The notes under the pieces: model-generated
The model's input: the letters and a program-made list of their open reading frames with translations, nothing else
The model's database searches: none
Told to the model about the DNA's origin: nothing
In this document: piece after piece, positions 4,724-43,661 of the stretch
Layout: each line of letters opens with the position of its first letter
Position numbering within the stretch: position 1 is the stretch's first letter
DNA from: Sphingomonas sp. CL5.1
Lineage (GTDB): Bacteria > Pseudomonadota > Alphaproteobacteria > Sphingomonadales > Sphingomonadaceae
Direction: 5' to 3'
DNA length: 64,000 bases
Assembly: GCF_013344685.1 (NCBI RefSeq)
Contig: NZ_CP050137.1
Coordinates: forward strand, 2,907,001 to 2,971,000
Program-made: the position numbers and the translations under genes

Positions 4724-4731
4724 GCTCGGCG

Positions 4732-5532: not shown

Positions 5533-5563
5533 ACATGCAGTCTGCCGAAATCAGGAAGTGCTG

Positions 5564-6427: not shown

Positions 6428-6690
6428 AGAAAGCACCTCGAACGCCAGGCCGGGGATCAATAGATCGGCCAGCAATCCTTTCTGCAACGCGTCGATCGAC
6501 GCGGGCGTCAATGCAATTTTCTTCGCCACAACCGACTCCGGGTCGGCTCCCCGTGCGGATAAAATCATGGCGGAAATCATGGCGGAATAGCCGTCCAGCC
6601 CAGTCTGGCCGAGGCGAGCCGGGTCTAGCTGACGTAGCGCCTGAATCTGCCGTAACGTTTTGCACTGGAACCGAATCTAGAGGACTCGGC
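6428..6690. other. Intergenic stretch between catabolic cluster and tRNA-Gln
   Basis: No gene is recognised. A minus-strand frame gives a protein-like stretch (ALTPASIDALQKGLLADLL) but has no convincing start or family match and overlaps the hydrolase gene; it could be a decayed gene end. Confidence 0.4.
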
Positions 6691-20552: not shown

Positions 20553-21400
20553 TCAGTTCTCGCTCTCGCCGTCCATGGGCGGGTTCTTTCGAGCCAGCGC
20601 CAATCGCCAAGCGACTACGTTCTTGTGGCGACAGGTGTGGCAGGAGAACGTCCCATGCTGGTCGTATTTCATCTCCCAGAAGAACCGCCACGGAATGAGG
20701 TTTGTCGCGCCGCAGTTATCGCAATCGATGTTTGCCGTTACTGACTCGAATGCGAATTCATCGCCATCCCTCGTTACCATCCATGTGTTTTTGCAATCAG
20801 GGTTGATGCAGTGAATATGCTGCTTCTCGCGTAACAGCTTCTCGCGCCGCTTGTTCGTAGTTCCGCATGAACAATCGAATGAGACCTCCATGCCAATGCC
20901 CGAGAAGGTCATCGTTCCCTTAGCCAGCCGTTCCAATTCGGCGACAACTTCTAAAACCTTGACTCGAATTTCATCTTTGTCCCCGTAGTCCGGTATATGG
21001 TCATCTTTGTCCTTTGGCAGGCGGGCATGTAGCGCCAGACGGGCGACGGCATTCCACATTTTGACAATCTTCTTTGCATCGAAGCCTACCTCGGTGCCGA
21101 CCTTGACGTATTCCTCATCCTCCAGCTTAACGCCTTCGCGGGCAGGGTTCTTGCCGATGCTTAACGTCATCGTGTCCGTAAGGTGGGCATCGACATCGCT
21201 TATTAGTGTATTGATGACTGCGCCCGGCTGCCACCGGCGCAACTGGTCGTGCGATTATAGGCGTGCCGTTGGCGTAGCCTGTCGTAGACGACTTTCTCCA
21301 GCGCCAAGCGGCACTCAAGCGCAGCATAGGTGATGCTAGCTTCGGTATCCTGTTCAAGTAGTGCTTTGTTGCGATCAATGATGGGCTGAAGTTGGATCAT
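20553..21400 (-). pseudogene. Zinc-ribbon protein, frameshifted paralog of the gene at 30188-31018
   Basis: The N-terminal part (ATG 21400, MIQLQPIIDRNKALLEQDTE, then YAALECRLALEKVVYDRL) and the C-terminal part (RRWQPGAVINTL to the stop at 20553) lie in different frames; the break is near 21253-21259, where one base appears lost after RHAY. Rejoined, the product would be about 280 residues and matches the intact gene at 30188 over its length, including CSCGTTNKRR, HCINPDC, CDNCGATNL and CHTCRHKN zinc-binding cysteine pairs. Function unknown. It lies just outside the left boundary of the island, while its intact paralog lies inside. Confidence 0.75.
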
Positions 21401-21834: not shown

Positions 21835-21880
21835 TAAGTGACTGAATTTACTAGGGAATTTTGGTGGGCGCACTTTTTTT

Positions 21881-21914
21881 TAGGGCTCGAACCTAGGACC
21901 CGCTGATTAAGAGT
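21881..21914 (-). repeat. Left attachment-site repeat (3' remnant of tRNA-Lys)
   Basis: 34 bp identical to 43598-43631, covering the tRNA-Lys anticodon arm to T arm. The preceding bases 21835-21873 also match the tRNA 3' acceptor end and its downstream flank (43560-43597) imperfectly, with a 7-T insertion at 21874-21880. The copy lacks the 5' half of the tRNA, as expected for the far end of an element inserted into a tRNA 3' end. Confidence 0.85.
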
Positions 21915-22116
21915 AAGTAAGGTCTCATAAGTTATTGATATTATTATATTTTCCCGTTTTCCGTTAAGCGAATTCCAAATCCCATTTCGAACGCCTTATA
22001 TGGAGGATTTTATGCGATAGACCCCGTCATTTCCAGGCGTTTTTTCGAGCCCTTTTCGCGCTTCGAGACCCACTGAAAAATGATCAGCGGGTCCAAAACG
22101 CCCTTGGCAATTGTAA

Positions 22117-22173: not shown

Positions 22174-22494
22174 ATGTTTGAAACGCCAGCAGAAATTGCC
22201 GAGGCCCTGGGCACCCGTATCCGTGTGCGCCGGCTCGCTTTGGGGTGGGGACAAGCGGAGGCTGCAAGCCGGGCGGGCGTATCCTACAGCACCTGGCGTC
22301 GCATGGAAGCGGAGGGCAAGGCATCGATCGATGATCTGGTCCGCGCAGCCATCGCCCTGCGGTGCGAACAGGATCTGAGGGCGCTGTTTCCCGAACCTGT
22401 GGCAACCAGCATGGATGCACTGCTTGACCACCAGCAAAAAGCAGTTGGGAGTGCACTGAAACGTCGAACTCGCGCCCCACGGCGAACGGCATGA
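22174..22494 (+). CDS. hipB: HipB-like XRE antitoxin
   Basis: A 106-residue helix-turn-helix antitoxin. The XRE domain runs over about residues 5-60 (EALGTRIRVRRLALGWGQAE, then AASRAGVSYSTWRRME) and a basic tail follows (KRRTRAPRR). It should bind its own operators and neutralise the HipA kinase encoded next. ATG 22174 is preceded by AGGGA; a longer in-frame start at 22126 would run through the operator palindrome region. It overlaps hipA by 4 bp (ATGA), so the two are translationally coupled. Confidence 0.82.
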   Translation: MFETPAEIAEALGTRIRVRRLALGWGQAEAASRAGVSYSTWRRMEAEGKASIDDLVRAAIALRCEQDLRALFPEPVATSMDALLDHQQKAVGSALKRRTRAPRRTA

Positions 22495-23741
22495 AACTCG
22501 TTCCCGGCAGGCCGTTGCTGATTGGGCTGTGGCAGGATGAAACCGGCGCGACGCAACCCGTCGGCCGGCTGGCGATAGCCAATGGCTTGGCGCAGCTCGA
22601 ATGGTCATCCGAACTGATTGCCGGCGGACAGCCGGTCGCTCCGGCGCTCTACCCGCTTGAGCCTGGCCTGCATCAGGCACGTACACGCGATTTCGACGGG
22701 CTCCATGGCTTTCTCGCTGACAGTCTCCCTGAAGGGTGGGGGGCGCTGGTGATGAAGCGGCGGTTGGCGACGCTTGGTGTTCGATGGGATGATCTCAACG
22801 GTGTCGATCGCCTCGCTCTGGTTGGGCGTCAGGGCCGTGGCGCACTTGTATTTGAGCCCGCGACAACGCCTGCCGAAGATGTGCAGACGCTCGATCTGGA
22901 CGAACTTGCTGCCGAAGCCCGTTCGATTTTGTTGGGGGACGAAGGAAGGTTGGCCGACACACTGGCCACCTTGGCGGGGGCTTCGGGTGGCGCGCGACCC
23001 AAAGTTCACATCGGCTTTGCGCCAGGCGGAGAAATCTGCCTTTCAGATGGAGAATTGGCGGCTGGATTTGAGAGCTGGATCGTCAAATTTCGTGCTTTGA
23101 CCGATCCCGTCGACATCGGTCCCGTCGAGGAAGCTTATGCACGCATGGCGCGTGCTGCCGGAATCATGGTGGCGCCCTCTCGCTTGTTGCCCGCGAAGGA
23201 CGGCCCCGGCTATTTCGCTACGCAGCGCTTCGACCGACCCGAACCCGGCCGACGATTGCACATGGTGTCGCTGGCGGGCGCGGTGGAAGCGCCGTCGCAT
23301 ATGCCGAGCATCGACTATGACGGCTTTCTCCGCGTGGTGCACGGCATCACCCGGCACGCGGGGGATCTTGAGCAGGCGTTTCGACGCATGCTGTTCAATA
23401 TCCTAGCCTATAATCGGGACGATCATACCCGCCAGCATGCATTTCTGCTTGGTGCCGACGATCAATGGCGCCTTGCGCCTGCCTATGATCTGACCTTCTC
23501 GAGCGGTCCCGGCGGCGAACATTATCTGGCCGTGGAAGGGGAGGGGCGCACGCCAACCCGCGCCCATGTGCTGCGTCTTGCCAAACGGCATGGCCTTTCG
23601 GAAGCGCAGGTATCGGAAATGATCGATGCTGTTCGGAGCAGCATTACCGATTGGCCGAGACATGCCGAAGACCTCGGCGTTGGCGCTTCGCGCAATGAGA
23701 TCGGTGAGCGGCTTGCTTATATCGACCGACTCTTTGGTTGA
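22491..23741 (+). CDS. hipA: HipA-family serine/threonine kinase toxin
   Basis: A 416-residue HipA-type kinase; relatives phosphorylate glutamyl-tRNA synthetase or other targets and induce dormancy. The N-terminal HipA_N-like subdomain includes LADSLPEGWG (about 75-84). The ATP-binding signature GASGGARPK lies at about 163-171, the conserved Lys in ESWIVKF at about 199, the catalytic loop NRDDHTRQH at 308-316 and the metal-binding AYDLT at 331-335. All key residues are present, so this is the one toxin in the island that looks functional. It is cotranscribed with hipB. Confidence 0.88.
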   Translation: MKLVPGRPLLIGLWQDETGATQPVGRLAIANGLAQLEWSSELIAGGQPVAPALYPLEPGLHQARTRDFDGLHGFLADSLPEGWGALVMKRRLATLGVRWDDLNGVDRLALVGRQGRGALVFEPATTPAEDVQTLDLDELAAEARSILLGDEGRLADTLATLAGASGGARPKVHIGFAPGGEICLSDGELAAGFESWIVKFRALTDPVDIGPVEEAYARMARAAGIMVAPSRLLPAKDGPGYFATQRFDRPEPGRRLHMVSLAGAVEAPSHMPSIDYDGFLRVVHGITRHAGDLEQAFRRMLFNILAYNRDDHTRQHAFLLGADDQWRLAPAYDLTFSSGPGGEHYLAVEGEGRTPTRAHVLRLAKRHGLSEAQVSEMIDAVRSSITDWPRHAEDLGVGASRNEIGERLAYIDRLFG

Positions 23742-26253: not shown

Positions 26254-26426
26254 TTCGATACGTCGATGAGTATGAAAAGGATGGCGCGCTGAGTGCAGGG
26301 ATGGTCGAGCCGGCTCCACGATTAGCTGCTCCGATCGCGGTGATGACGATTCCTGTTCCGTAATGAGCTTGATCCTGTAAGGAGCCTGCCCCGCTCCATA
26401 ACCTATTGCAGGATATACTCTATTTC

Positions 26427-28418
26427 ATGACACTGAAGGTCCGTCGCAAACGCATTTCTTCCGCTCGGCCCCTTCCGGCATCTCTGAAAAAGAAGCGCGG
26501 TCCAAAGCCGCGGCCTGTCGTGGCACTGCCGGAAGCCAAATCCGGTATATGGGCGGACAAGGATGCGTTTCATGAAGCCCTTGCGTTCCATATCGAGCGG
26601 CACGGCGACACGGTCTGGCATCTGCACAAGGCGATCACTGGCCCGAAAGACCGCGTCGATCGCAAGACGATCGCGCACTGGGCGGCCGGAACCAAGGTGC
26701 CGCGTTCGGTGACGAGCCTCGAATTGCTCGGCCGGATCGAAAGGCGATACCAGCTCCCGCTCGGCTATTTCGCGTCCAAGCTGCCGCATACGGATCGGGC
26801 CGCAAGCGGTCATACCAAGCTTGGCGACATGAAGCCTTCGGAAAGGCGGCGGATCGCCTGGCATTTGCCGAGCGATTTCGACAGGCGTTCTCTGAAGGAA
26901 TGTGATGAGATTCTCGCCTGGGTTCGCAAGGTCATCGTATCCGGAGCAACGGACTATCGTCTCTATCAGGCGGCGGCGATGCAACATCGTTACGCGCTGC
27001 GTTTTCCCGATCCGGCCAATCTAGCCGCGAGTGTCTTGCCGGGGGCGCAGGACGAAAGTGATGAGGAAGAGGGCGACGATGTGGAAATCGAGCTTGCTGC
27101 GGCAAGGCGCGATGCTCCCCGTCGCCTGATAGGCGAACTGGCTCATCTCGTCCGGTTCAAGACGGCGACGCTGACCGAGATCGGTTTTCAGCGCAATGGC
27201 GTCTGGAACGATGCGACGGCGTTCCAGAAGGTCGATCATCTGGGCTTGCTGTTCGGCGCGATGGCGGCGGACCCGCAGGGACCGGTCGCCGGCCTTGGCG
27301 TTCCTCTCTCGAAGCTCACCATGGCCCTGCTGGTTTTTCCCGCCGTTTGGGATTGGTATGTCCAATGGCGTGAAAGGCGCCGGGGCTTCTATACCATCTG
27401 GGAAGTCAACATGATCCAGTTGGGTCTCGCGCTGACACGAGCAGAAACCGGGTGGTTGCGTCAGCGTCCCGATCTTGCCCGCGCGCTGCGTCCCATTTCC
27501 GGTCTGGTGTCGCAGGACGATATCGATCGGGTTGTGGCCGATTGGGAAGGGGCTTGTGAGGCCTTCTATCAGCACGGCATGGTCCGCGCGAAAGAGCTCC
27601 AGCGCGTTGCTCGCGTTCATCGGGATACGTTCGAACCGATCATGGCTGTTCTCGAGGCCGACAGTCCGGTCGGTGAGTATCGTCGCATTGCTGATGAGGT
27701 CGTCCGCCTCATGCCGCGCAAGGACCGATATCCCAAGGCGGCGGCGGAAGCGGTGCGCTCCATTCTGATGATCCGCCTCGGACTGCATCTCGGCGTTCGG
27801 CAGAAGAATCTCAGGGAACTGCTCTTCTGTCCTCGGCACGAACAGCCATCGACGGAGCGCCAACTCGAAACGCGCCGATGCGGGGAGATGCGCTGGAGCG
27901 ACAAGGAAAAAGGCTGGGAGGTCCTGATCCCTGCCGCGGCTTTCAAGAACGCGAATTCTTCCTTTTTCTCAGCCAGGCCATTCCGGTTGGTGCTGCCGGA
28001 TGTCGGCGATCTCTATCGCTATATCAGTGCGTGGATTCGCGATCACCGTGCCCTACTTCTGAACGGCGCGAAGGATCCGGGCACCTTTTTCGTCAAGACC
28101 GTCAAATCGACGAGCCAGGATGCGGCGTACAGCCAGTCGTCTTTTTACGAAGCCTGGCGCCTCATCATCCAGCGCTATGGCATATATAATCCCTATACCG
28201 GGCGAGGCGCGATCAAGGGGCTTCTGCCGCATGGGCCGCATAGCGTCCGGGATGTGCTGGCGACCCATGTGCTGAAAGAGACCGGCTCTTATGAGCAGGC
28301 GGGCTATGCGATTCAGGACACGGCTGAGATCGTTGCCGAGCATTACGGGCGATTTCTGCCGGAGAATAAGGTCGCGTTGGCCGCTAAAGTCATCAACAAG
28401 GTGTGGGAGGTGGCGTGA
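26427..28418 (+). CDS. Large tyrosine-recombinase-like protein
   Basis: A 663-residue protein whose C-terminal third carries the tyrosine recombinase catalytic layout: Arg in GLHLGVRQKNLRELLF, His-x-x-Arg in PHSVRDVLATHVL and the terminal Tyr in AEHYGRFLPE. The first 400 residues are an unusual N-terminal region with a basic start (KVRRKRISSARP, KKKRGPKPRP) and an acidic stretch (DESDEEEGDD). It is about twice the length of a typical integrase. ATG 26427 was chosen; a TTG at 26406 is possible. It is the only recombinase in the island and lies 4.5 kb from the left end, not next to the tRNA. Confidence 0.72.
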   Translation: MTLKVRRKRISSARPLPASLKKKRGPKPRPVVALPEAKSGIWADKDAFHEALAFHIERHGDTVWHLHKAITGPKDRVDRKTIAHWAAGTKVPRSVTSLELLGRIERRYQLPLGYFASKLPHTDRAASGHTKLGDMKPSERRRIAWHLPSDFDRRSLKECDEILAWVRKVIVSGATDYRLYQAAAMQHRYALRFPDPANLAASVLPGAQDESDEEEGDDVEIELAAARRDAPRRLIGELAHLVRFKTATLTEIGFQRNGVWNDATAFQKVDHLGLLFGAMAADPQGPVAGLGVPLSKLTMALLVFPAVWDWYVQWRERRRGFYTIWEVNMIQLGLALTRAETGWLRQRPDLARALRPISGLVSQDDIDRVVADWEGACEAFYQHGMVRAKELQRVARVHRDTFEPIMAVLEADSPVGEYRRIADEVVRLMPRKDRYPKAAAEAVRSILMIRLGLHLGVRQKNLRELLFCPRHEQPSTERQLETRRCGEMRWSDKEKGWEVLIPAAAFKNANSSFFSARPFRLVLPDVGDLYRYISAWIRDHRALLLNGAKDPGTFFVKTVKSTSQDAAYSQSSFYEAWRLIIQRYGIYNPYTGRGAIKGLLPHGPHSVRDVLATHVLKETGSYEQAGYAIQDTAEIVAEHYGRFLPENKVALAAKVINKVWEVA

Positions 28419-30187: not shown

Positions 30188-31018
30188 CTATCCGCCGGAC
30201 AAAGTGCTACGCGCTGCATGGTAGAGACGCCATTGAAAGATCGTTTCGTCTCCGCAGTCGCAGACAAACGTGCCTATCTCACCTTTACGCATCCTCTCCA
30301 GCGGCGCCTTGGCGAAAAGATGCGTCTTCCCGCAAGGACAAGCCACCTCGACCGTACGAGGGCTGAAGGTGAAATCCTTCCCGTCCGGTTCGACCTCGAA
30401 GCTGTGAGGACACTTCGGATTGACGCAGTGGACCACCTTGCCTTCGTGCAGGTGCTCCGATTTTCGCTTGTTGAGCGTCCCGCACTCGCAGGTGAACGAG
30501 GCTTCCGGCCCGAAACCGGTTGAGGTCAGGTTGCCGGTGGCAATCCTTTCAAGTTCAACCAGGCATTGCTCGACCTTGGCCCGCATCGCATCCGGGATAC
30601 CGAACTGCCCGACCGCGTCCGCGCTCGATTTGGGCAAAGCGATGTGGAGGGCTACCTTGGAGAGCCCGTTCCAGAGCTTGGCGAGATGGCCGCCGTTAAA
30701 CCCCTGCTGCGTTCCGATCGGAACGTAGTCGAGGCTCGTAAGGTCCTGGTTCCCCTCAACCGGTTCGCGGCTGACGCTGATCGTGTAGGTAGAGGCCACG
30801 TCGGGGTCCACGTCCTCCTCGATCAGTCGGATAACGTGGTTGGGCTGCCAGCGGCGTACCTCCTCGTGAGCGAGATAATCGTGCGCCTTCGCCAGCCGGT
30901 CGTAGCAGATACGCTCAATCGACAGGCGGCACTCGAGCGCGGCATAAGTCAGCGCGCGCGCTGAACCGTCGGCCAAGTGGCCTTTGATGGAGGCGATCGC
31001 GTCTTGAAGGTCGATCAT
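30188..31018 (-). CDS. Zinc-ribbon protein of unknown function
   Basis: A 276-residue protein with an N-terminal helical domain (DLQDAIASIKGHLADGSARA, LTYAALECRLSIERICYDRL, RRWQPNHVIRLIEEDVD) and a C-terminal half with three cysteine-rich units: CECGTLNKRK with VHCVNPKC, CPCGKTHLF, and CDCGDETIF. These look like zinc ribbons that could bind nucleic acid or serve as structural knuckles. A frameshifted paralog lies at 20553-21400. The gene is divergent from the unknown plus-strand gene at 31085 (66-bp gap). Family unknown to me; function not assigned. Confidence 0.72.
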   Translation of the reverse strand: MIDLQDAIASIKGHLADGSARALTYAALECRLSIERICYDRLAKAHDYLAHEEVRRWQPNHVIRLIEEDVDPDVASTYTISVSREPVEGNQDLTSLDYVPIGTQQGFNGGHLAKLWNGLSKVALHIALPKSSADAVGQFGIPDAMRAKVEQCLVELERIATGNLTSTGFGPEASFTCECGTLNKRKSEHLHEGKVVHCVNPKCPHSFEVEPDGKDFTFSPRTVEVACPCGKTHLFAKAPLERMRKGEIGTFVCDCGDETIFQWRLYHAARSTLSGG

Positions 31019-31084: not shown

Positions 31085-32425
31085 ATGCCCATCTTTTCTC
31101 GCCGCCGCATCCAGCAAATGCTAGACGACCTGATCGGGGTTGCGAAGCCCTCACATTTCATTGGCCGGCTGAACGACAAGCGGTTCGAAAACGCGCTGCC
31201 GGCGGAAGCCGAACTAGCCCTGGTCTGGGCGGCGAACCGCCTCGGCGGGTTCGAGTCCGAACCGACGTGGTATTCGCCGCACGGAAATCTGCCGGAAGGT
31301 ATCTCCACCGCCTTCTTCTCCGGCCGAGAGGCTGTGTTCGACGTCAAGGCGGTATCGGATCGTGTCATCCCCGGCGTGGCGGCGATGCGGACAATCACCG
31401 CAAAGCTGGTGGAGGCGGCCAACAAGGCCGCGAAGGGGTCGGGCCGCAATCTCGAGTTCTTCTACTTCGAGCGGCGCGACTACTTTAATCCAAAGCTGCA
31501 TCGATCCATCCGGGCCCCGGCTAATCATATCCTCGGGGAGAGCCTTCTTGCGACGCTAGGCGCGTTCGTCCGATCCGGGCCCAAGGAGGATGACCACGTC
31601 GACATCATCGACGGCGAACTGGCTGTACGGGTGACGTGGAAGCCGGGCACGTCAGCATTGTTCAACCGCCGGCAGTCGACAGTGAACGAGATTTTCGATC
31701 CCGACGACAACTACATAGCAGCGGCGCTTCGCGAAAAGGCGCGGCAGCTGCGGTCCGTGGACTTCACTGGTCTCAAGGGAGTGCTCCTCGTCGACATCGG
31801 CAGCGCGACTCTAAGGACGATCAAGGGGATCGACCGTCAAAACCACAGCGCGTCGGGCCAGCGGATTATCCAAGGCCACCTCGACAAGCCAGATGGCGGA
31901 CTGGACTTCGTGTGCGTCTTCTCGCCCCAAGACTGGAGCGACATGCGGGGCAATCGGGGAAAGTCCTGGCGGGTTACCGCGTTCCAGCGAACCGGCCTCG
32001 ATCTGCCGCTCGATGGATTGAGATCGCTCGCCGAACAGCTTCCGCCACCGCGGTTCACCAGTGACGAGCTGGAACATCTGCACGAGCAGCGTCTCTTCGG
32101 AGGGCAGACCTACGGATGGTATTTGGGGGGTAGCATGACGTCGGAACCAGAAAAGCACGAGATGACTGCGACCTTCTCGGCGCGGGCGCTCCACGACTTC
32201 CTCGCCGGACGCCTCGACGGCGACCGTTTGCGCGACAGCATGATCGGCATGCGGGGAGCGTTCGAATACCAGCTTTCGCGCGGTCACACGATCAGTTCGG
32301 CGCGGCTGATCCCCGCAGGCGTTGACGAGGACGACGATGTGATCGAGCTGAGCTTCGCGGCCGACCCGGCTGCGGCCACGTTTGAGGATCGCAGCCCGAA
32401 AGACGGTAGCGGCAACCGCGGCTGA
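31085..32425 (+). CDS. Unknown protein with possible nuclease-like N-terminal motif
   Basis: A 446-residue protein with no family I can name. The N-terminal half contains AEAELALVWAANRL, then GREAVFDVKAVSD, an E ... D-x-K arrangement that faintly resembles a restriction-endonuclease-like core but lacks other support. The C-terminal half is acidic near its end. ATG 31085 is the first start outside the divergent zinc-ribbon gene's upstream region. It is convergent with the 913-residue ATPase gene (227-bp gap) and divergent from the zinc-ribbon gene, so it may be a control or accessory component of the neighbouring system. Confidence 0.6.
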   Translation: MPIFSRRRIQQMLDDLIGVAKPSHFIGRLNDKRFENALPAEAELALVWAANRLGGFESEPTWYSPHGNLPEGISTAFFSGREAVFDVKAVSDRVIPGVAAMRTITAKLVEAANKAAKGSGRNLEFFYFERRDYFNPKLHRSIRAPANHILGESLLATLGAFVRSGPKEDDHVDIIDGELAVRVTWKPGTSALFNRRQSTVNEIFDPDDNYIAAALREKARQLRSVDFTGLKGVLLVDIGSATLRTIKGIDRQNHSASGQRIIQGHLDKPDGGLDFVCVFSPQDWSDMRGNRGKSWRVTAFQRTGLDLPLDGLRSLAEQLPPPRFTSDELEHLHEQRLFGGQTYGWYLGGSMTSEPEKHEMTATFSARALHDFLAGRLDGDRLRDSMIGMRGAFEYQLSRGHTISSARLIPAGVDEDDDVIELSFAADPAAATFEDRSPKDGSGNRG

Positions 32426-32652
32426 CACAACGCGTCATTTGGAATAGGCAGGCATCCTGCACTTCACCCTCTTTGCGCCCTAAAGTTAGACGTTCCCGCA
32501 CTCCAGAGCGCCTCCCAATAGCCGACGGGCAGCTTGTTGATCATACCTCAGGTCAGAATGAAGAGGCCCGGGACATTCCTGCCATTCCCAAAGTGCTTGT
32601 CGCATGAGTCCAGGCCCGGGAGACTTGCGCGCGCGGCGCGCGGAGCCGCCCT
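32426..32652. other. Convergent intergenic region
   Basis: No gene. A GGCCCGGGAC and CAGGCCCGGG pair (about 32565 and 32612) is repeated around a 35-bp spacer and could be part of a bidirectional terminator. Confidence 0.4.
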
Positions 32653-35394
32653 CTAGGATCGCTTTCGCGCGCGATTGTAGAGGTTCACCACGCTTCGCCG
32701 CGCCCCGGCATGCTTGAGGCCCAGCCCCCGCCGGAAGAGTTCCGGCACTTCGTAGGGAGGCTTGTCACCAAAGATGATGCCGTGGCGGATCAGCGCTGCG
32801 AGTTCTGTATCCGTGAGCCCGAGCTGATCGACGACTTCCTGGCTGAGCGGAACGGCGAGTTCATCGGCCTGCGACTTGAACTTAGCGAAGGCGGGCTTGA
32901 GTTCGCCGATCTCTTCTTCGGTTTCTTCTACCTTCGACGTGCTCGTGGATTCAACCGCCGTCCGTAGCGAGCGGGGCGTCAACAAGCGTCCGGCATAGAG
33001 CGCGACTTCATCCCCCTCCGGCGCGACCGTTGCCGCGCTGGCGAGAAGACGGACAAGATCCCGAGGCACGAGGCGCCCGCGCAGATCGGAAAGGACAGCG
33101 ACGATCCAAGTGGCGGTATAGGCTTCCCGCGTACGTTGGCCTGGCTTGTCGTCCGGCCCGAGCTTGGTGCCCCAGAGCGGCTCAAGCTTCGATGCGCGTT
33201 CGGCCGAGGAGAGATTTTGGAAGTCCGCGTCCCAGATGTCCGGGATCGCCCTTGACTGCGATGCGAGCCATGCGGCGAGTTCCAGGACATCGTCTTCCGT
33301 CCAGGTGAGCGCGAAGGCCGCATATTCGCGCCTGAACTGATCGAGGTTCTGACGGATCGCGGCCTCAACGGTGTCTCTGCGCACAAAGGCGATCATCCCG
33401 ACCGGCCGTCGCAATTCGGACCGGAGCTTCTGGGGAAGCGAGATGAGGAGTGCACGCATCGCCAACTCGACACCGGGGTCGACGACGGACGAATAGAGTT
33501 CCTCCAGCCCTTCGAAGACTGCCACGATCGATGTCGAACCGGCGCGAAGCACGTCGAAGAACGCTTCGCCTGCCCCTTCGGTTTTGGCTTTGTAGCCGGC
33601 GCTCCACGCAATCACATCGAGCCAGACTGATACCCATTTGCTCTCGCTCAGATTGCTCTGGAGCTTCTCCTTGAGATAGCTCGTCGTCTCGAAGATGTTC
33701 AGAGGCTCGCCATAACCCAGTTTCTGGGCAACGGCGCGACGAGCGTTGCCCGCCTCCTGCTGCAAGATGGCGCTCGACTGGATCGATGCAGCGATCGGTA
33801 CAACCGCAGCGGAAATGGCATTGTCGCCGCCGACCAGATCCGCAGCTACCTGGCTCCAATCGCCTTTAGAGACGATGAAGCGTGCCGCGAGCGTCTTGCC
33901 AGTGCCCTTTGCGCCTTCCGCGATCGCGATCGGCACCTCGGACTTGTACCGCGACGCCAGGGCACTGAGCGGCTGAGTGACTAACGGACGCGGCACGGTC
34001 CCCTGGACGTTCTCGGCCGCGATCAGTTGGTTGGCGAAGGCGCTCAGTGCCTGACGCTTGTCGGCGACTGCCGGGGATGGTGCTTCCGGCTCAAGGGGAC
34101 TCGGTACTGCCTTGAAGGACAATTCGGTGGCAACAAATTCTTCGCTGCCATTTGCCAAGGCACGCGAAAACCCGCTGCTGCTGAGCTGTTCGACGAAGTC
34201 GCGCCAATTCCCCGTAGGCACCTGGATATCGGGAAGTTCCGGTACGTCGACCTGGACAAAGGGCTGGATGTCAAAGGCGCTCGCGAACAGGTCTTCGCCC
34301 GCGCCGATCTCGACCGAGGCATCGCTGACAAGAGAATTCAGCAGCTCGGTGGTCAAGGGCTCCGTGATCTTTTTGTCCATTCCCGTCTGTCGGAAGAGGA
34401 CTGGCACGCGATTGACCACCAGCAAAGGTCGACGCGGCGCCGCACCATTCCTGCGAAATTCGCGCGCAAGGAAACTGACGAAGCCCGTCGTCGCTTTGAT
34501 CGACTGGTCGGCCAAGGTGGTAACGAAGATCGGCGAGACGTTCGGGTCCATCGCGAGGTTGACGCCGATCGGGACCAGACCCGCCCTTACATCCACGACG
34601 ATCCCCGCGACGCCGAGATGGGCCGCAACACCGGAGAGCAGGTCGGCGAGTGCGAACGGCCGCTCCGGCGTGGAAAGATGCTCGGGCCGGATTGACGAAC
34701 TTGCCAGCTCGGCAATGTCACGCCGCAGTGGCAGAACGAAGATATTGCCGGGCAGCAGATGGTCGCGAAGCCGTTCGGCAACGAACTGCGTCGTCTCCGG
34801 CGCGCCATCGGTCTCTTCGGCATGCGCCAGAGCGATCAGGTCCTCCAAGGACGTCTTGGGGTGCCCGGCAAATGCCTCGAACAGGTAGCTGATCCCCGGC
34901 GCCTCAAGGTCCGCGTCGACGAGCAAGATGGGGCGCCCGCTGGTTGCTGCCCAATGGAGGGCGAATGCGACAGCGGTCGTGGTGCGGCCTGTGCCCCCCT
35001 TTACGCTCAACGCCGCCGCGATCGGGATCTGTCTCTGCGAACCCTGCGCTTCGGCTGGCCGGAAATCGATCCATCCATCTACCACGCCGAATGGTTGTCT
35101 CGATGTCCCCTGATCGGTGACGATTTCGATGTCTACCGTCAGATCGCTGGTCGACTGGCCGCCTTCGAGTTCGATCCGCAGCGGATTCTGTTTGATCCGC
35201 GAGGGGAACAGCGTTTCGAGCCCGGCGGTGAGCTGCGCCGTATCTACGGCTGCGGTGGCTTGGAGCAACAGGCCGAACCAGCCAACCCGCGCGCTGGCGA
35301 TTTCCGCGGGCAAGGGCGACTGGGCGGGATCGATACCTGCCAGGCAGCGGGCAACGTCAACCCATGTGACCGGGGAATGATCGGGAGTGCTCAT
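32653..35394 (-). CDS. Tandem ATPase: deviant KGGTGR MinD/ParA-like domain plus AAA-type P-loop domain
   Basis: A 913-residue protein, last gene of the operon. Residues about 1-120 form an unknown N-terminal domain. Then comes a MinD/ParA-like ATPase with SVKGGTGRTT (132-139), where the usual KGGxGKT lysine is Arg, then VDADLEAPG (159-167) and VVDVRAG (267-272). A second P-loop GAKGTGKT (494-501) begins an AAA/STAND-like domain with a Walker B-like VAVFEGLEEL and an Arg-finger-like IAFVRRDT. It overlaps the HEPN-like gene by 4 bp. It may act as a sensor, switch or assembly factor for the nuclease and HEPN partners; this is inference. Confidence 0.8.
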   Translation of the reverse strand: MSTPDHSPVTWVDVARCLAGIDPAQSPLPAEIASARVGWFGLLLQATAAVDTAQLTAGLETLFPSRIKQNPLRIELEGGQSTSDLTVDIEIVTDQGTSRQPFGVVDGWIDFRPAEAQGSQRQIPIAAALSVKGGTGRTTTAVAFALHWAATSGRPILLVDADLEAPGISYLFEAFAGHPKTSLEDLIALAHAEETDGAPETTQFVAERLRDHLLPGNIFVLPLRRDIAELASSSIRPEHLSTPERPFALADLLSGVAAHLGVAGIVVDVRAGLVPIGVNLAMDPNVSPIFVTTLADQSIKATTGFVSFLAREFRRNGAAPRRPLLVVNRVPVLFRQTGMDKKITEPLTTELLNSLVSDASVEIGAGEDLFASAFDIQPFVQVDVPELPDIQVPTGNWRDFVEQLSSSGFSRALANGSEEFVATELSFKAVPSPLEPEAPSPAVADKRQALSAFANQLIAAENVQGTVPRPLVTQPLSALASRYKSEVPIAIAEGAKGTGKTLAARFIVSKGDWSQVAADLVGGDNAISAAVVPIAASIQSSAILQQEAGNARRAVAQKLGYGEPLNIFETTSYLKEKLQSNLSESKWVSVWLDVIAWSAGYKAKTEGAGEAFFDVLRAGSTSIVAVFEGLEELYSSVVDPGVELAMRALLISLPQKLRSELRRPVGMIAFVRRDTVEAAIRQNLDQFRREYAAFALTWTEDDVLELAAWLASQSRAIPDIWDADFQNLSSAERASKLEPLWGTKLGPDDKPGQRTREAYTATWIVAVLSDLRGRLVPRDLVRLLASAATVAPEGDEVALYAGRLLTPRSLRTAVESTSTSKVEETEEEIGELKPAFAKFKSQADELAVPLSQEVVDQLGLTDTELAALIRHGIIFGDKPPYEVPELFRRGLGLKHAGARRSVVNLYNRARKRS

Positions 35395-35807
35395 CGGTTT
35401 TTCTTACACCATTCCAGCAAGGATTTTAGCCAGTCGTAGATTGCGTTGGTGTCCTGGATCTTCTCACCGTAGCGCCACGCCTCGTGGAGGACCGCTGGCG
35501 TCCCATTCAGTCCGAGCCGAACCGTCACCACTGGCGGCACCGGTTTCACGCTCGAACGTGAAATGTTCAGCGCCTGAATGAGTGCGACGATGTTGTGCGA
35601 AAAGCTGCGCGCAGATCTGGCGCTGCCGCGCATTTCATCGGTGTACTTCAAATTGTTCTGCAGCATGTATGCGGACTTGAGCCCACATTCGGCCGCATAG
35701 AATAACAACAATGCGGCAGAGTCAGAATCGTGCGGCTTTTCGCGCTCAGCGGAAGCGAAGAGTTCCTCCGATCGTCGACGTAGTGCCATTGCTGGAGGGT
35801 TGATCAC
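35391..35807 (-). CDS. HEPN-like small protein
   Basis: About 138 residues. The helix LLLFYAAECGLKSAYMLQNN and the later RSARSFSHNIVALIQAL fit a HEPN domain, including an R-x6-H pair that could be the RNase motif. GTG 35807 was chosen because GGAAG lies 4 bp upstream; ATG 35789 is possible but has no ribosome-binding site, and upstream extension overlaps the previous gene. It is coupled by ATGA to the tandem ATPase gene. HEPN proteins are common RNases in toxin-antitoxin and defence systems, so this is a plausible effector. Confidence 0.65.
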   Translation of the reverse strand: MINPPAMALRRRSEELFASAEREKPHDSDSAALLLFYAAECGLKSAYMLQNNLKYTDEMRGSARSARSFSHNIVALIQALNISRSSVKPVPPVVTVRLGLNGTPAVLHEAWRYGEKIQDTNAIYDWLKSLLEWCKKNR

Positions 35808-35856
35808 GCGGCTTCCAATGCTCCTTACCGCAGCGAGCGAAAGGGATGTGGTCCCT

Positions 35857-36312
35857 CTATTCCGTAGCGGCGAGGCGATGTCTAGAGCCGACCCGGCGCG
35901 GTCGGAAGCGTTCCGCGCCATCGGACTGTCTGCCTTGTTCAAAGCATTTCCTGCCTGCCAAACCGGACAGACCGCTTTCAGGGTCGGTGACACGGTTCGC
36001 GAATGACACATGGGGCGCATAGCAGGCCAACTGCTTCTCGGCGGGTACCACAACGAGATAGGCGATGCTGAACGGAATAGCCTTGGCACCCTCCGCTCCC
36101 TTCAGATAGCCGCCGCGCCGGCCCTGACAGCGGCGCAGTCCCAACTCGGCGAGCGTGGCGAGCGCGGTGTCGAAGCCGCGCTGCGCGTCGAGCCGCTGGG
36201 TGAAGGTCATCGACGACCAGATGTCGCCCCAGTCGCGAAGGTCGTCGAACAGCGCCGCGGCCTCGCGCTGGGCCTCTTCGCCGCCAGGACGCACGAGACG
36301 CGCGGCCGACAT
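35857..36312 (-). CDS. Small protein of unknown function in the ATPase/nuclease operon
   Basis: A 151-residue protein not matched to a family. A helical N-terminal part (EEAQREAAALFDDLRDWGDI) is followed by FTQRLDAQRGFDTALATLAE and a Gly-rich LKGAEGAKAIPFSIAYLVVV strand segment; the last about 35 residues are Arg-rich and may be non-conserved. ATG 36312 overlaps the TGA of the large NTPase gene by one base (TGATG), so translation is coupled. The next gene starts about 50 bp after its stop. Probably an adaptor; no function is assigned. Confidence 0.55.
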   Translation of the reverse strand: MSAARLVRPGGEEAQREAAALFDDLRDWGDIWSSMTFTQRLDAQRGFDTALATLAELGLRRCQGRRGGYLKGAEGAKAIPFSIAYLVVVPAEKQLACYAPHVSFANRVTDPESGLSGLAGRKCFEQGRQSDGAERFRPRRVGSRHRLAATE

Positions 36313-39300
36313 CACGGATCACTGGCGTCCCGCGCTGCCGCGGCCACCGCCGCATCACGCTCGACGAGGCGCATCACGAGTTGGATGTTCATCGCGGAGA
36401 ATTCGGTCAGCTCACCGCGCAGGAGGCGGGAGAAATCCGCCGCCATCGGCGTTCCGGCGAATTCGGGGCTGTACTCGATCGCGAGGCGCTCGAGAGCCAG
36501 AGAGACGAATTCAATCGCGTTGTTGATATCCTGATCCGGCGCTTCGGAGGCGAGATCCTGAAGGCGCTTGAGCCTCGCCGCTAGTCCCGCATTACGCTCC
36601 TTGAGATGGCGAAGCTCCTCCTCGTTCGGTAGCCGGTCCGCGCATGCGTTCATGCCCGACAATTCGGTGATCGCGGCAGTCGCGTCGTTGAAGGCCGCGA
36701 CGGCGTCGGCGGGCACGATCGGGAGCGGCAGGTGGGTCGCCCATTTCTCGGCAAATCCGAGATCGGGCACGAACGTCGCGGCCTGCTGGCCCGCGAAGTT
36801 CGGGACGACATATCCGTCCACCACCGGCGCGAAATAGACGCGGAAATGGTCGGGGAACGTCCGTGTGACCGCGACTGCTCGCTCGGCGGATTCGAAAAAT
36901 CCATCGATATTGGGCACGTGGAGGAGGACGGCATGCTCCACCCGCGGCCACAAAGGGATCTTCTCCTTGATCGGCGGGCGCATGCCGATCGTGGCCTCGA
37001 ACCCGGCCTCTTGGAACGCCGTCTCAATCTCGCTCGTCATCGCCATTGCCCGATCGCTCGCACGCTGCCGCGCATCGGCGGCAAAGCGCATCAGCGCGCG
37101 ATTGTGCCGGCTGCTTCTCTGCGCACGCAGGCGCGAGATGCGGAAGCCTTCGGGCTCGCGATGCGCATCTCCGAGCACGGCCTCCAGCGCCGCAAGCGTC
37201 TCCCCGCAGTCGCCGATCGCCTGGACCGGCACCTCGGCCAGCCATTTCCAGTCGGGCGACGTCTTCAGCTCATCCGCCTGCCTTGCAAGCTCTGCGGCTT
37301 CGCTCGACAGAAGGAGCGGGTGGTCAATGTCCGGCGCGACGAGCTTCTGGGTGAGCGTCGTCACGGCATCTACCCAGTTCTTCGTCTTGTCCACTGTGTC
37401 GTAGCGACCGAGGTCGAGTGGCGACCGAGCTTCATCGCCCACCGCAGACGCGCGGATGAAATTGTTGAGCAGGGCTCTGATGCTGAGCTTGAGCGTTTCC
37501 TCATTGGTCGCGACACCACCGCGGCAATAGGTCTCGGCGGCCGCCGACAGGATCGGCGAGAGATCCCGCATCGCGCCAGCCAGCGCGTCGGCGCGGCCGG
37601 TCTCGGTCGGAGTGCCAAGCTGGCGCTGGATCGCTCGCAGGATGGCGCGGTTCCAGGCGACGCGTACCGGAGGCGGAATCGCGTCGCGCGTCAGGCGCTT
37701 GGTGGCCACATTGATGTCCTGCATGCCGGCCGGGCGGCCATCCCATCCGACCGCGTCGCTCACCAACAGGTCCGCGTCCGGGACAGCGGCGCCTAGCATC
37801 TCGCAAAGCGTCACAACCGATCCGTTGGGATCGGGCTGGATGCTCGGCGCAACATAGCGGTAGTTCGACGAGGCGATCTTGAAGCCGTCCTCGTCATAGA
37901 CGGTCGGTCGCGTCACCCAGGCCGTCTCGACATGGATCCTCTCGAGCAACCGGTCGATGCCCCCGAAAACTGCGATGGCCGCCTGCGCCGGCCCGACGCC
38001 GAACTCCCGCAACGTCGCGACCACCTTGAGCAGATCGCGGATGGCCGTCTCTGCCCATTCGGGGCGTACCGGCATCGCCGGTTCCGCCGTCCCCGTGACG
38101 AAGGCAATGGGAGCGAGCGACGCGGCCAGCTCGTGAAAGCCCTCAAGCGTCTCCGGCGACGGCAGTTGCGACAGACCAGCGCGCTCGATCAGGTCGACCC
38201 GCAGATCCGCGGTCTCGAGTTCCATGAACCTGGCCTTCGCCTCGTAGACCTTGGCGGAGGTGGGATTGTCGATGACCTGATCGACGATCGCCAGGGTGAA
38301 GGCGGTGGCGACGACCTGCTCCGGGATTTCGATGTCGGCGCAGATTCCGCACCATCGGGCCGCGATCCTGTCGCACATCACGAGACCGAGGCCGTGGAAG
38401 AGCGCCGTCAGGCCGAGCGAGGGCAGAGACGGTGCGCGCCGGGCAAGCGCGTCGAGCACAATCCCATCGCCGATATCCTCCTCTCGCATGAGGCGCGGCA
38501 GCACCACCGGCAGGTCGGACGCTCGGAGCACTCCGATCGAGATCGCGACCTCATCCACGAGACCGGTGGGCACCATGCGGCGAAGTGCATCATGCAGCCC
38601 GCGCGATCGGATTTCGTGCAACCCCGCGATCGAGCCGTCGTCGGTGACGCGCAGCGCATGCTCGTCGGCGAGCCTGGCGAGCGCACGGGCGAAAGCCGGG
38701 ACAGAGAGACCGAGGCGGGAGCGCAGCAGATCCTGATCGACCGACCCGCCATGCCGCGCCACGGAGACGACCGCGAGCAGGATTTCGAGCTCGCTGTCCC
38801 GCGTTTCGGCCAGCCGGCGCCGTACCTGGTCGTCGAGCGTCTCCTGGAGCCGCTTCCCACTCGTCAGCAGATGGACATATTCAAGAAGCAGCCCGCGAGC
38901 GAGCTCGCACGGCTCGCGCCAATGGGCGAAGTTGCCGGCCCCGTCGGGGCCCAGCGCCGCGAAGATCCGTTCAGCGAGCGCATCGTCCAGCCTGGGTCGG
39001 ACCAACGTCGTCGCAGCAAGGCTGCCGACGAGGAAGAGATCCTCTTCGCGGATCGTGCCGAGAAGCAGCAGCCCCGGTTCGTGCGCGGCTTCGCGGACCA
39101 GCGCGTCCCAACCGCCGACCGAGTCGCGGCCCAGATCGTCGAGCACGAAGCCGACCGGGCGGTCGGCCGTCGCTTCCAGCCGGCGAGAGAGGTCGATCAG
39201 GCTCGAAGCCTGGTCGGCGCCCAGGCTGCGGACCCGGTACCAGCGCACAGCATGGCGCATCTGTTCTGCGAACAGCCACGCCGTTGCCGACTTGCCACTG

Positions 39301-40196
39301 CCGGACGGCCCGGCGACGAGTGCCGAGCGCCGCCGCTCGAGCGCCTTCTGAAGCTCCCCGATGAGCTCGGGGCGATCGAGCACGAGACCGGCGCCGACAT
39401 GTCCCGGTGTCGCGTCGACGCCTTCGTAGAAATTCGGCTCGGCGATGGGCGTGAAGTCGACGATCTCGCAAAGCCCGAGCGCGAGGGCCGAATGCATCGA
39501 AGCTGGATCCGTAAGCGACGAGACACGGTCGATTGCACGTGCCACGTCGTCGATCACCATGACCGCGGGCGCCTCGGCGGGTGCGAGATAATTGCGGTCC
39601 GACATCAAGCCGACATCGAGCCGCAGATCGTGGGCAACGATGCGCGCGGCCGCATCGACCATGCCGGTCCGCCCCGCAATCAGGACCGTCGCGGACCCGA
39701 TCGGGTCGGTATCCACGACTAGGTGGCAAGCGCTCAGGAATTCGACGATGCCAAGGTTCGCCATGGTGTCGCCAAGATGGGGGCGCAGTGCTTCGACGGC
39801 CGCTTCGTCCTTCCCCAGGCTCATGGCCCATCCTGTCTGATCGAAGTCGGCCGCCGGCCGCTCAATGACCAACGTCAACTGAACACGGCCGGTGCGCAGG
39901 TCATCGCCATCCACCGTCGCCGACGACTTGAGAAGATGCTGCGCCACTTCCAGCGACGAGAACGTGCCGCGCGGATCGTGACGCGCCTTGACCTGTACGC
40001 GATATTCGCAGCCACAGCCGTGCAAAGTGATGTCGTCCAGTCCCTCCGGGACAACGACCGTCCAGCCTGCGCCACTCCAGGCATCGACGGCCAGACCCGC
40101 ACTCACTGCATCCTGATAGCGAAAGCCGCGGCCCGAGCGCGCGCCGGCGCGCGACGCATCCCAGAGCGCCGGATTGATCTGCACGCGATCCGTCAT
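36312..40196 (-). CDS. Cap4/DUF4297-like nuclease fused to a STAND-type NTPase
   Basis: A 1294-residue protein. The N-terminus has GRGFRYQDAVSAG, EGLDD (about 51-55) and YRVQVKAR (Gln 68, Lys 70), the layout of PD-(D/E)xK nucleases of the dsDNA-cutting Cap4/DUF4297 type. A P-loop NTPase follows with GPSGSGKS (about 296-303), Walker B FVLDD (350-354) and GTIREED. The long C-terminal region is helical and Leu/Ala-rich, probably a sensor. The architecture is like Avs/STAND immune proteins. ATG 40196 was chosen over GTG 40229, which overlaps the previous gene. Likely an abortive-infection nuclease activated through its NTPase domain (inference). Confidence 0.8.
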   Translation of the reverse strand: MTDRVQINPALWDASRAGARSGRGFRYQDAVSAGLAVDAWSGAGWTVVVPEGLDDITLHGCGCEYRVQVKARHDPRGTFSSLEVAQHLLKSSATVDGDDLRTGRVQLTLVIERPAADFDQTGWAMSLGKDEAAVEALRPHLGDTMANLGIVEFLSACHLVVDTDPIGSATVLIAGRTGMVDAAARIVAHDLRLDVGLMSDRNYLAPAEAPAVMVIDDVARAIDRVSSLTDPASMHSALALGLCEIVDFTPIAEPNFYEGVDATPGHVGAGLVLDRPELIGELQKALERRRSALVAGPSGSGKSATAWLFAEQMRHAVRWYRVRSLGADQASSLIDLSRRLEATADRPVGFVLDDLGRDSVGGWDALVREAAHEPGLLLLGTIREEDLFLVGSLAATTLVRPRLDDALAERIFAALGPDGAGNFAHWREPCELARGLLLEYVHLLTSGKRLQETLDDQVRRRLAETRDSELEILLAVVSVARHGGSVDQDLLRSRLGLSVPAFARALARLADEHALRVTDDGSIAGLHEIRSRGLHDALRRMVPTGLVDEVAISIGVLRASDLPVVLPRLMREEDIGDGIVLDALARRAPSLPSLGLTALFHGLGLVMCDRIAARWCGICADIEIPEQVVATAFTLAIVDQVIDNPTSAKVYEAKARFMELETADLRVDLIERAGLSQLPSPETLEGFHELAASLAPIAFVTGTAEPAMPVRPEWAETAIRDLLKVVATLREFGVGPAQAAIAVFGGIDRLLERIHVETAWVTRPTVYDEDGFKIASSNYRYVAPSIQPDPNGSVVTLCEMLGAAVPDADLLVSDAVGWDGRPAGMQDINVATKRLTRDAIPPPVRVAWNRAILRAIQRQLGTPTETGRADALAGAMRDLSPILSAAAETYCRGGVATNEETLKLSIRALLNNFIRASAVGDEARSPLDLGRYDTVDKTKNWVDAVTTLTQKLVAPDIDHPLLLSSEAAELARQADELKTSPDWKWLAEVPVQAIGDCGETLAALEAVLGDAHREPEGFRISRLRAQRSSRHNRALMRFAADARQRASDRAMAMTSEIETAFQEAGFEATIGMRPPIKEKIPLWPRVEHAVLLHVPNIDGFFESAERAVAVTRTFPDHFRVYFAPVVDGYVVPNFAGQQAATFVPDLGFAEKWATHLPLPIVPADAVAAFNDATAAITELSGMNACADRLPNEEELRHLKERNAGLAARLKRLQDLASEAPDQDINNAIEFVSLALERLAIEYSPEFAGTPMAADFSRLLRGELTEFSAMNIQLVMRLVERDAAVAAAARDASDP

Positions 40197-40219
40197 CGCC
40201 CCGTGCCGGCTACGATCGC

Positions 40220-42652
40220 TCAAAGCCACGCCTTCTGCGTCGCGCCGATCACGCGCCGCGCGGTCGGGCGATCGTAGCCGAGACCGAGATCGAGCCAGTA
40301 GGTGACGGCATAATATCGCCCTTCGGGCTCCGCCCGATAGGCGCGCAACAGTTTCTCGACCCGGGTGCGACCGACGCTCACGGGCACCTTTCGCGCCACG
40401 GCTCGCCGCACATGGTCCTTGTCGCTGAGCAAAAGGGCGATGATGGCATCGTCGGTCAGCTTCGCGAACTCGTTGGCCGGCGTGGATTCGATCAGCAGTG
40501 CAAGCATATGTGTCGGAAGGTCGAGGGCGATGAGCTCGGACAGGTCCTTGTTCAGTCGCAGGATGACTCGGGCCGCCTCGGTAAATTCGGCCTGAATGTC
40601 GCCATCGTCGTGGGGGACCGTGATCATCGGCGCTTCGCTCAGCCGAACGATGTCCCTTGCGTTACCGAGCGTCTTGAGGAACGCGATCACCGGCATCGTC
40701 GTCGGAACGCCGCTGTGATCGAGAACTTCGCGAACAAGCTCAAGATCGGCTGCGTCCCGCTGCGCCGCCACGATTTCGAGAGCGGCCTTGGTCAAGTCCC
40801 TCTTCTTCGCGACCTCCGGGTCGGTTCGCCGGCCGATCGAGAGCAAGCTTACGGCGGTCTCCGGCGGCGCCTTGATGCCTTCCGGCCAGTGCAACGCGAA
40901 ATAGCTCTCGAAGCCGTCGCGCAGGTCTGCCCTCAGGCGCGTGCCGAAATCACCGATGCGCCGCGCGGCGAGCGCCTGATAGGCGGCGTCGCGATGCGTG
41001 GGCGTGCTAAGCAGGGTCTCCAGCATCGCGGCGGGCAGCGACCGCAGACGCTCGGTGCGATAGTCCTCGAAGAGCACGGCGCCTGACGAGTCGATCGAGG
41101 CGAAGAAATTGTAGCTCGCGAGCGGCGATCGCGAATGTGCGAGGACCTTGTACGCTTCGTCGAGCGACAGTCCCTGCCCGAGCCGGTCGAGCGCGCGCAA
41201 CGCGGCGAGACGGACCTTCGCCGACTCGTCCGATTTCGCGCGATCGAGCGTTTCGAGGTCGATGGCGCCGCGTTCGCTCAGTTCGCGGACCACGGCCGCT
41301 CGGACCTCTGGAGAACGATGATCGAGGCCGTTGCGCAGCATCTGCATGGGCAGTTGTGCGACCTGCTGCAGAGCACGAGCCTGCAATCCTTCGTCGATCT
41401 TCTCGTAGGACGTTCCGATCAGATATTCGGCCGCCTCCTTGTCGCCTTGCCGCAGGTGGATGGCGACGGCCGCCTCCAGCGCGGCCGCCAATGTCTTGCT
41501 TGCGGCGCGCTCTACCTCCTGCTGGACCAAAGGAAGCTCGCGCGGCGTGCCGAGATCCCGAAGGTATCGCAGCGCCGCCACCTTGATCTCGGACTCCGTG
41601 GCCTCCCCGAGCCAGTAATTCCCCACCGCTTCCTCCTTGAGGAAGGACAGTTGCTCGATCGGCGCCTGCAGCCGGCGCATGGCCTCAATCGCGCCGCTTC
41701 GTTCGGCGGGCTCGCCGAATATGGTGAGGCTCATCAGCAGGTCGGCTTCCTTGCTGGTGATATTGGCAAGCCAGCTCCAGACCGGCAGGTTCTCCTGCGC
41801 AATCGCGCTCAGACCCGCCTCCAAAAGCCCACGCCGTTCCGCGAAGGACAGGTCGAAGCTGCCGCGGCCTGAATAGATGAGGTTGGCGTCGTGCACGCCG
41901 ATGAGTTGCTTGTCGTTGTTGGAGAGGCCGGCGGATGTCGCGATCAGGCGCAGGCGCGCCACCTCGGTTGCCGTGAGAGTGCCATTCCTTCGGACGGTGG
42001 CGGAGGTCTCGAAGAGGAAGTCGGCATCTGGAGCGACTTCGTCGTTCGCCGCGATAGCGGACTGATCCGTCCTCTCGGACTTGCGCGCTATCTCGATCGG
42101 CCGTTCTTCGCGTGGCGCCGCCGATTGTCTCAGCAGCTGGATGACGTGGTGGGAGAGGAACTCCCGGACCCGCGCCGCGAAATCGTCGGCTCCACCGAAC
42201 GTGCCATAAAGGAAGGTCTTCTCCGCCTTCAGCTTCTCCTGGAAGGCGAGAACCTTCTGCAGCTCGGCGCCAGGATCGCGCATCTGTCCCGGTTCGACCG
42301 ACTTGAAGAACATAGCCATGATCGGACTGCTGGTCTCGGCATGACGCTTGCGCGAAAGCTCGAACTCTTCTTCGAAGCCGGACGTGTAGGGGCCGTCGAG
42401 CGATGGGCGCGATCCCCAGGACGTCCAAATCGCACCGATGAACAGATCGCAGGTTTCCATGTCGGCGTTGATGATCTGCTGGGGACGCCCATGGCCGGAG
42501 AGCGTCTCCTCCCAGCCGATCAGTTCGAGACGACCGCCCAAGGGTCTTGCGACAGACCGATTGACCTCCTCGGCGGCAGCAAACGCGGCCTTGCGCTCTT
42601 CTTCGAGCCCGCCCGGAGATGCAATGAAGGCACGGATAAGCTTGATGTCCAT
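40220..42652 (-). CDS. DUF4062 (TIR-like) protein with long helical-repeat C-terminus
   Basis: An 810-residue protein, first gene of the operon. Residues 1-190 match DUF4062: KLIRAFIASPGGLEEER, CDLFIGAIWTSWG, the conserved SGFEEEFELSRKR (acidic pair near 94-96) and MAMFFKS. DUF4062 is a TIR-like domain seen in NTPase-linked immunity proteins. The rest (about 260-800) is Leu/Ala-rich helical repeats resembling HEAT/ARM units (SPEVRAAVVRELSERGAIDL, AKVRLAALRALDRLGQ). ATG 42652 is taken; the longer frame has no family support. Its stop lies 24 bp before the next ATG. It could sense phage proteins and signal to the partners. Confidence 0.78.
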   Translation of the reverse strand: MDIKLIRAFIASPGGLEEERKAAFAAAEEVNRSVARPLGGRLELIGWEETLSGHGRPQQIINADMETCDLFIGAIWTSWGSRPSLDGPYTSGFEEEFELSRKRHAETSSPIMAMFFKSVEPGQMRDPGAELQKVLAFQEKLKAEKTFLYGTFGGADDFAARVREFLSHHVIQLLRQSAAPREERPIEIARKSERTDQSAIAANDEVAPDADFLFETSATVRRNGTLTATEVARLRLIATSAGLSNNDKQLIGVHDANLIYSGRGSFDLSFAERRGLLEAGLSAIAQENLPVWSWLANITSKEADLLMSLTIFGEPAERSGAIEAMRRLQAPIEQLSFLKEEAVGNYWLGEATESEIKVAALRYLRDLGTPRELPLVQQEVERAASKTLAAALEAAVAIHLRQGDKEAAEYLIGTSYEKIDEGLQARALQQVAQLPMQMLRNGLDHRSPEVRAAVVRELSERGAIDLETLDRAKSDESAKVRLAALRALDRLGQGLSLDEAYKVLAHSRSPLASYNFFASIDSSGAVLFEDYRTERLRSLPAAMLETLLSTPTHRDAAYQALAARRIGDFGTRLRADLRDGFESYFALHWPEGIKAPPETAVSLLSIGRRTDPEVAKKRDLTKAALEIVAAQRDAADLELVREVLDHSGVPTTMPVIAFLKTLGNARDIVRLSEAPMITVPHDDGDIQAEFTEAARVILRLNKDLSELIALDLPTHMLALLIESTPANEFAKLTDDAIIALLLSDKDHVRRAVARKVPVSVGRTRVEKLLRAYRAEPEGRYYAVTYWLDLGLGYDRPTARRVIGATQKAWL

Positions 42653-43542: not shown

Positions 43543-43585
43543 CGACCGCGCCATCACCATAAGTGATTGATTTTATTAGAAATTT

Positions 43586-43661
<76 letters not shown>

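Follow-up and report, generated by a model that had tools for sequence, protein, structure and literature searches.

A run of five minus-strand frames in Sphingomonas sp. CL5.1 is best read, at a probability of roughly 85%, as a mosaic: three independent defense-type units sit next to one another where a tRNA-Lys gene serves as an integration hotspot, and one of the joins holds the remnant of a regulator gene. The frames occupy 42652-40220, 40196-36312, 36312-35857, 35807-35391 and 35394-32653 of the window, the 64,000-nucleotide stretch that was analyzed, and a sequence-only reading had placed them at the same positions. Unit 1 is the first frame (P0001) and unit 2 the second (P0002). Unit 3 comprises the fourth and fifth (P0005 and P0004). 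Each unit resembles a kind of system that is already catalogued, and a defense-type character is likely for all three.

The three units occur separately

The sequence-only reading had joined the five frames into a single defense system with two effectors, a DNA nuclease and an RNase, and two NTPase layers. Its appeal is easy to see. All five frames share a strand, the spacings are short (frame 2 follows frame 1 after 23 bp, and frame 4 follows frame 3 after 49 bp), frames 2 and 3 meet in a TGATG junction and frames 4 and 5 in an ATGA junction, and every intact protein comes from a conflict-type family. However, such a system should be recognizable elsewhere, and genes of more than one unit were found together at none of 27 related loci (14 for P0004, ten for P0002 and three for P0001), a set that lies apart from the neighborhoods of the metagenomic proteins to which P0002 and P0004 are most closely related. 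Homologs thus occur without the neighbors seen here, an outcome that the sequence-only reading had itself named as a refutation, and on this co-occurrence result we rejected the five-gene system. Two further observations weigh against it: frame 3 is a gene remnant, and the DNA similarity to a Rhizobium locus described below spans the last two genes only. We now consider a single system very improbable.

The separation holds from the side of each unit. At none of the 14 P0004 loci did tblastn (E≤0.001) detect a match to P0001, P0002 or P0003 (frame 3); about 10 kb of upstream DNA was available at 12 of these loci, and about 1.2 kb and 1.7 kb at the other two (L004 and L012, respectively). The other genes were absent from all ten P0002-family loci examined, and the other four genes from all three loci with P0001 relatives.

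A narrower grouping would pair P0001 with P0002 as a two-gene system, NADase plus nuclease-STAND protein, newly made in this lineage and distinct from the HEPN-ATPase pair. The two genes lie on the same strand 23 bp apart and, according to a preprint, some DUF4062 genes sit in operons with other defense genes (PMC13174449). Against this, P0001 had no match at any of the ten P0002 loci, nor P0002 at any of the three P0001 loci, and we regard the pairing as improbable. Within this one strain the situation may be different: the short spacings (23 bp, the overlap and 49 bp) allow a single transcript, so the units of the mosaic could be co-expressed and could even cooperate. In favor of separate units, G+C content also differs among them: it is 0.640 for P0001, 0.666 for P0002 and 0.619 for unit 3, with 0.614 for the whole island and 0.704 for the chromosome to its right.

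A broken regulator gene lies between units 2 and 3

The third frame had been taken for a small gene of its own. Instead, its residues 11-95 match residues 135-219 of an intact 231-residue HTH_3 protein at 82% identity, and the frame holds an XRE/HTH_3 regulator remnant at 36028-36282 on the minus strand. Only five proteins, all of 230-231 residues, are related to it at E≤1, with 56-57% query coverage and 73-83% identity; both of the two that we scanned contain an HTH_3 domain. When the intact relative is compared with the CL5.1 genome, the fragment is its sole match. The fragment is cut at both ends, with the HTH half missing and the C-terminal end replaced. The last 35 or so codons of the frame run in DNA of the HEPN unit, from 35963 downwards; because window positions 32635-35963 align to the Rhizobium locus, the end of the frame falls in the leader of that unit. 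P0003 was accordingly rejected as a real small component. Both overlaps proposed as signs of coupling are present, that of frames 4 and 5 and that of frames 2 and 3, but since frame 3 is a remnant the TGATG junction is most likely accidental. The join of units 2 and 3 thus holds a broken regulator gene.

The island begins at tRNA-Lys

A tRNA-Lys gene (anticodon CTT; 43586-43661, minus strand; ARAGORN) forms one border of the island, which begins at the 3' end of this gene. A partial, imperfect copy of the 3' part of tRNA-Lys and its downstream flank lies 21.7 kb away at 21835-21917 on the same strand (83% identity to 43560-43634) and is probably the other border. In a same-genus comparison, 12 of 30 matching genomes, our own included, yielded tRNA-Lys loci. 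At all 11 of the others the DNA shared with the window stops at the tRNA-Lys 3' end, at 43586 in ten and at 43579 in one. We disregarded a tblastx comparison of these loci with the window, which yielded only noise. The site seems to have been used repeatedly for integration, because three same-genus genomes (G010, G011 and G028) likewise carry partial tRNA-Lys copies at a distance of about 8-21 kb from it. These data suggest that it is a recurrent integration site.

The island carries several other genes. Near both ends of the 20.5-31 kb region, two minus-strand genes (20553-21242 and 30188-31018) encode paralogous proteins that are 38% identical over 220 residues and contain cysteine pairs like those of zinc ribbons; neither matched a family above cut-off. 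A plus-strand gene at 26406-28418 encodes a 670-residue protein with no Pfam, NCBIfam, PADLOC or PHROG match, the C-terminal part of which resembles a tyrosine recombinase by eye only. Close to the border opposite tRNA-Lys lies a HipA-type toxin gene (22491-23741, plus strand; HipA_C 151 bits, Couple_hipA 37 bits). Adjoining unit 3 on the opposite strand, 31091-32425 (plus) encodes a 444-residue protein with no family match.

Unit 1 is likely a DUF4062 NADase

P0001 (40220-42652, minus strand) is an 810-residue protein with a TIR-like DUF4062 domain at residues ~3-178 followed by HEAT-type helical repeats. The sequence-only reading had recognized both parts, and in Pfam both exceed their cut-offs (DUF4062, 27.1 bits against 24.7; HEAT, 26.0 against 23.5). 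The PADLOC family PDC-S60 also matches P0001, over residues 3-178 only; we found no mention of PDC-S60 in the literature searched. PHROGs returned no match for P0001, and a sequence search of solved structures gave nothing relevant.

The same recent preprint describes DUF4062 as a TIR-like NADase family in anti-phage defense, named Swarozyc (PMC13174449). P0001 has the same plan, an N-terminal DUF4062 domain and a long C-terminal auxiliary part. An alignment of P0001 and three relatives shows a cluster of invariant glutamates, E94, E95 and E96, any of which may be the counterpart of the conserved catalytic glutamate, E97 in KpSwz. It differs in that its C-terminal part is HEAT-like, and the likeness is to the published description rather than to the tested Swarozyc sequences. 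We consider P0001 likely to be a Swarozyc-type, TIR-like NADase, and likely a new DUF4062 NADase. Unit 1 would then probably act as a stand-alone abortive-infection NADase: its helical repeats would detect a phage product, whereupon its DUF4062 domains would assemble and destroy NAD+.

Relatives of P0001 are few: three of 298 family genomes, our own included, and five plasmid records, one of which (H13) was taken into the analysis, the other four matches covering 11-20%. One relative (L040) lies amid genes that, by eye, appear to encode ribosomal proteins and elongation factors. On an Asticcacaulis plasmid, the relative is broken by an IS5 transposase gene.

Unit 2 joins a putative Cap4-like nuclease to a STAND-type NTPase region

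P0002 (36312-40196, minus strand; 1,294 residues) combines a putative N-terminal Cap4-like nuclease, a STAND-type NTPase and a long C-terminal part. The Cap4-like and STAND-type regions assigned to it earlier were recovered in its family: P0002 itself falls below the Pfam cut-offs (11.5 bits for the Cap4 domain PF14130, cut-off 26.2), and at E≤0.001 nSTAND1 is matched by nine, nSTAND_NTPase5 by eight and Cap4_nuclease by five of 30 family members. The nuclease motif of PF14130 consists of acidic-Q/E-x-K residues. Across 30 aligned relatives, the family is full-length and E51, D54, D55, Q68, K70, GPSGxGKS (296-303) and D353-D354 are invariant. No close solved structure was found by sequence.

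Avs proteins are built from an N-terminal effector nuclease, a central STAND-type NTPase and a long C-terminal part. P0002 shows this layout in one protein, as in Avs (AVAST) systems, but none of the 30 family members matched an Avs model in PADLOC at E≤0.001, and for that reason we do not class P0002 as Avs; the only PADLOC families matched at this threshold were LmuA (four members) and HamA1 (one). HerA-DUF4297 systems also couple a nuclease of the Cap4/DUF4297 type to an ATPase, which reportedly drives it. There the two are separate proteins, whereas P0002 is a single polypeptide with a STAND-type NTPase. P0002 probably works like a STAND sensor-nuclease, and unit 2 would probably be a stand-alone sensor-effector: the C-terminal part would sense, the ATPase would assemble and the Cap4-like nuclease would cut DNA.

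The P0002 family was found in two of 289 class genomes and six of 397 family genomes (our own in both counts) and in 12 plasmid records. Five of these records were taken in (H1-H4 and H8); H5-H7 repeat the H4 match, and H9-H12 cover 22-31% of the query. Two genome matches were left out (G655, 119 residues; G034, 18 bits). In viral contigs, 36 stretches carried the family's peptide patterns and none was confirmed. At three P0002-family loci the nuclease-STAND gene is followed on the same strand by a very large gene (L028, 12030-16871, 1,613 residues; L025, 12824-17200, 1,458 residues; L030, 3437-7876, 1,479 residues), a possible partner that has no counterpart in the window.

Unit 3 pairs a HEPN-fold protein with a fused tandem ATPase

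The last two frames form a unit with clear DNA borders. P0005 (35391-35807, minus strand; 138 residues) is assigned a GTG start, where the family alignment begins, with an alternative ATG at 35789. P0004 (32653-35394, minus strand; 913 residues) fuses a MinD/ParA-like KGGVGR ATPase to a second ATPase of the Sll1717 type. All of 32635-35963 is shared with Rhizobium halophytocola (L003) at 85.3% identity over 3,331 blastn columns. This stretch includes P0005 and P0004 only: the similarity reaches 156 bases upstream of the start of P0005 at one edge and 18 bases beyond the stop of P0004 at the other.

The same pairing recurs elsewhere. A scan for conserved peptide patterns in one genome per species returned 109 stretches, of which 14 were confirmed as P0004-family loci, a lower bound. 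In 13 of the 14, tblastn and profile searches place a P0005-type HEPN gene directly upstream of the tandem ATPase; the fourteenth (L016) retains a truncated gene, roughly the last third of the ATPase only. Relatives at L003, L004, L005, L006, L009 and L013 likewise have the two genes overlapping by 4 bases. In Rhizobium sp. G21 (L014, 9917-12732) the tandem ATPase is divided between a 474-residue and a 496-residue frame that overlap, either split or frameshifted. In viral contigs, 23 pattern stretches were found, of which one, where a contig ends, belongs to a partial relative (L085).

Structure prediction and fold comparison bear out the HEPN-like character suggested for frame 4: the P0005 model has a pLDDT of 92.7, its best VIA-align rows are HEPN chains, and toxins of HEPN-MNT pairs match at lower Z. 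P0005 had no PHROGs match. The classical HEPN RNase motif is Rx4-6H. In 14 P0005-family sequences E40, K44, H71, W111, R112, Y113 and G114 are invariant, and no invariant arginine lies 4-6 residues ahead of H71, so the classical motif is not conserved, which weakens the proposed RNase step.

For frame 5, the tandem ATPase proposed at the outset was found as two P-loop ATPase regions, with a KGGVGR ATPase match in NCBIfam. The model (pLDDT 81.3, pTM 0.50) says little on the relative placement of the domains; its fold is MinD/ParA-like, the list of fold matches spanning residues 120-429 only. In a sequence search of solved structures, query A1 matched ParA/MinD-type chains and query A5 nothing relevant.

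Unit 3 is a diverged relative of PDC-M28

The five-gene set had been thought undescribed. For unit 3, comparison with a defense catalogue changes this: P0004 matches two models of the PADLOC candidate system PDC-M28 (M28A, M28B and M28C; PADLOC-DB 2.0.0, 2023), M28B at E 9.5e-13 (46 bits) and M28C at E 6.8e-10 (36 bits), but in a fused and diverged form. Among 33 aligned P0004 relatives, all match M28B and 31 match M28C. The order is that of PDC-M28 as well, with a small HEPN-like gene, a KGGVGR ATPase and a second P-loop ATPase.

Several features set unit 3 apart. B and C are one protein in the P0004 family, whereas they are separate genes at three canonical PDC-M28 loci (L068, L070 and L071). 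The fusion also occurs naturally in the canonical group: at L067, a single 915-residue frame (3791-6538) matches M28B over residues 3-445 (509.5 bits) and M28C over 456-911 (342.8 bits). P0004 is far diverged: it scores 46 and 36 bits, whereas the canonical proteins that we scanned reach 343-653 bits. P0005 differs in having no M28A match, nor any other PADLOC family match at E≤1. M28A is matched by five of 14 P0005-family members (best E 0.0015), and the two families have AEC-x-LK and W..RY motifs in common, although a profile comparison aligns only 15 columns, at 75% probability. Five of the 20 PDC-M28A loci were enlarged for this analysis. We found no mention of PDC-M28, Sll1717 or KGGVGR in the literature searched. 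We conclude that unit 3 is a two-gene, fused, diverged relative of PDC-M28.

How such a unit might work is a more tentative matter. The MinD-like and second ATPases, on one chain, could bind and hold the HEPN protein until a phage signal alters their nucleotide state, whereupon it would probably act as an RNA-cutting effector. It is possible, although we put this somewhat short of even odds, that unit 3 is a self-sufficient and so far uncharacterized system against phages. Its HEPN effector would then have a non-classical active site (E40-K44, H71 and R112-Y113) and would be gated by two ATPases acting together on one chain, the first of them a partition-type deviant-Walker ATPase. The MinD/ParA-like fold of P0004 would also suit an addiction or stability module, in which ATPase and HEPN protein serve to retain an integrated or mobile element rather than to fend off phage. 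The HEPN fold of the toxins in HEPN-MNT pairs, at their lower Z, is consistent with this, and genes that look resolvase-like by eye adjoin the HEPN-ATPase pair in L004, L006 and L007. Yet searches of 72,556 plasmid records and 50,697 phage records gave no match to P0004, and PADLOC lists the related triad as a candidate for phage defense. On balance a stability module seems unlikely, though a more serious contender than either grouping of units considered above.

Implications

Neighboring defense-type genes of an island can mimic an operon, even to the point of a stop-start overlap that involves a gene remnant. Therefore, the gene order of one genome should not be taken as one system. Unit 3 represents a fused branch of PDC-M28 that is compact, having two genes, and is clearly delimited at the DNA level; it could easily be cloned and tested, and is worth a test at the bench.
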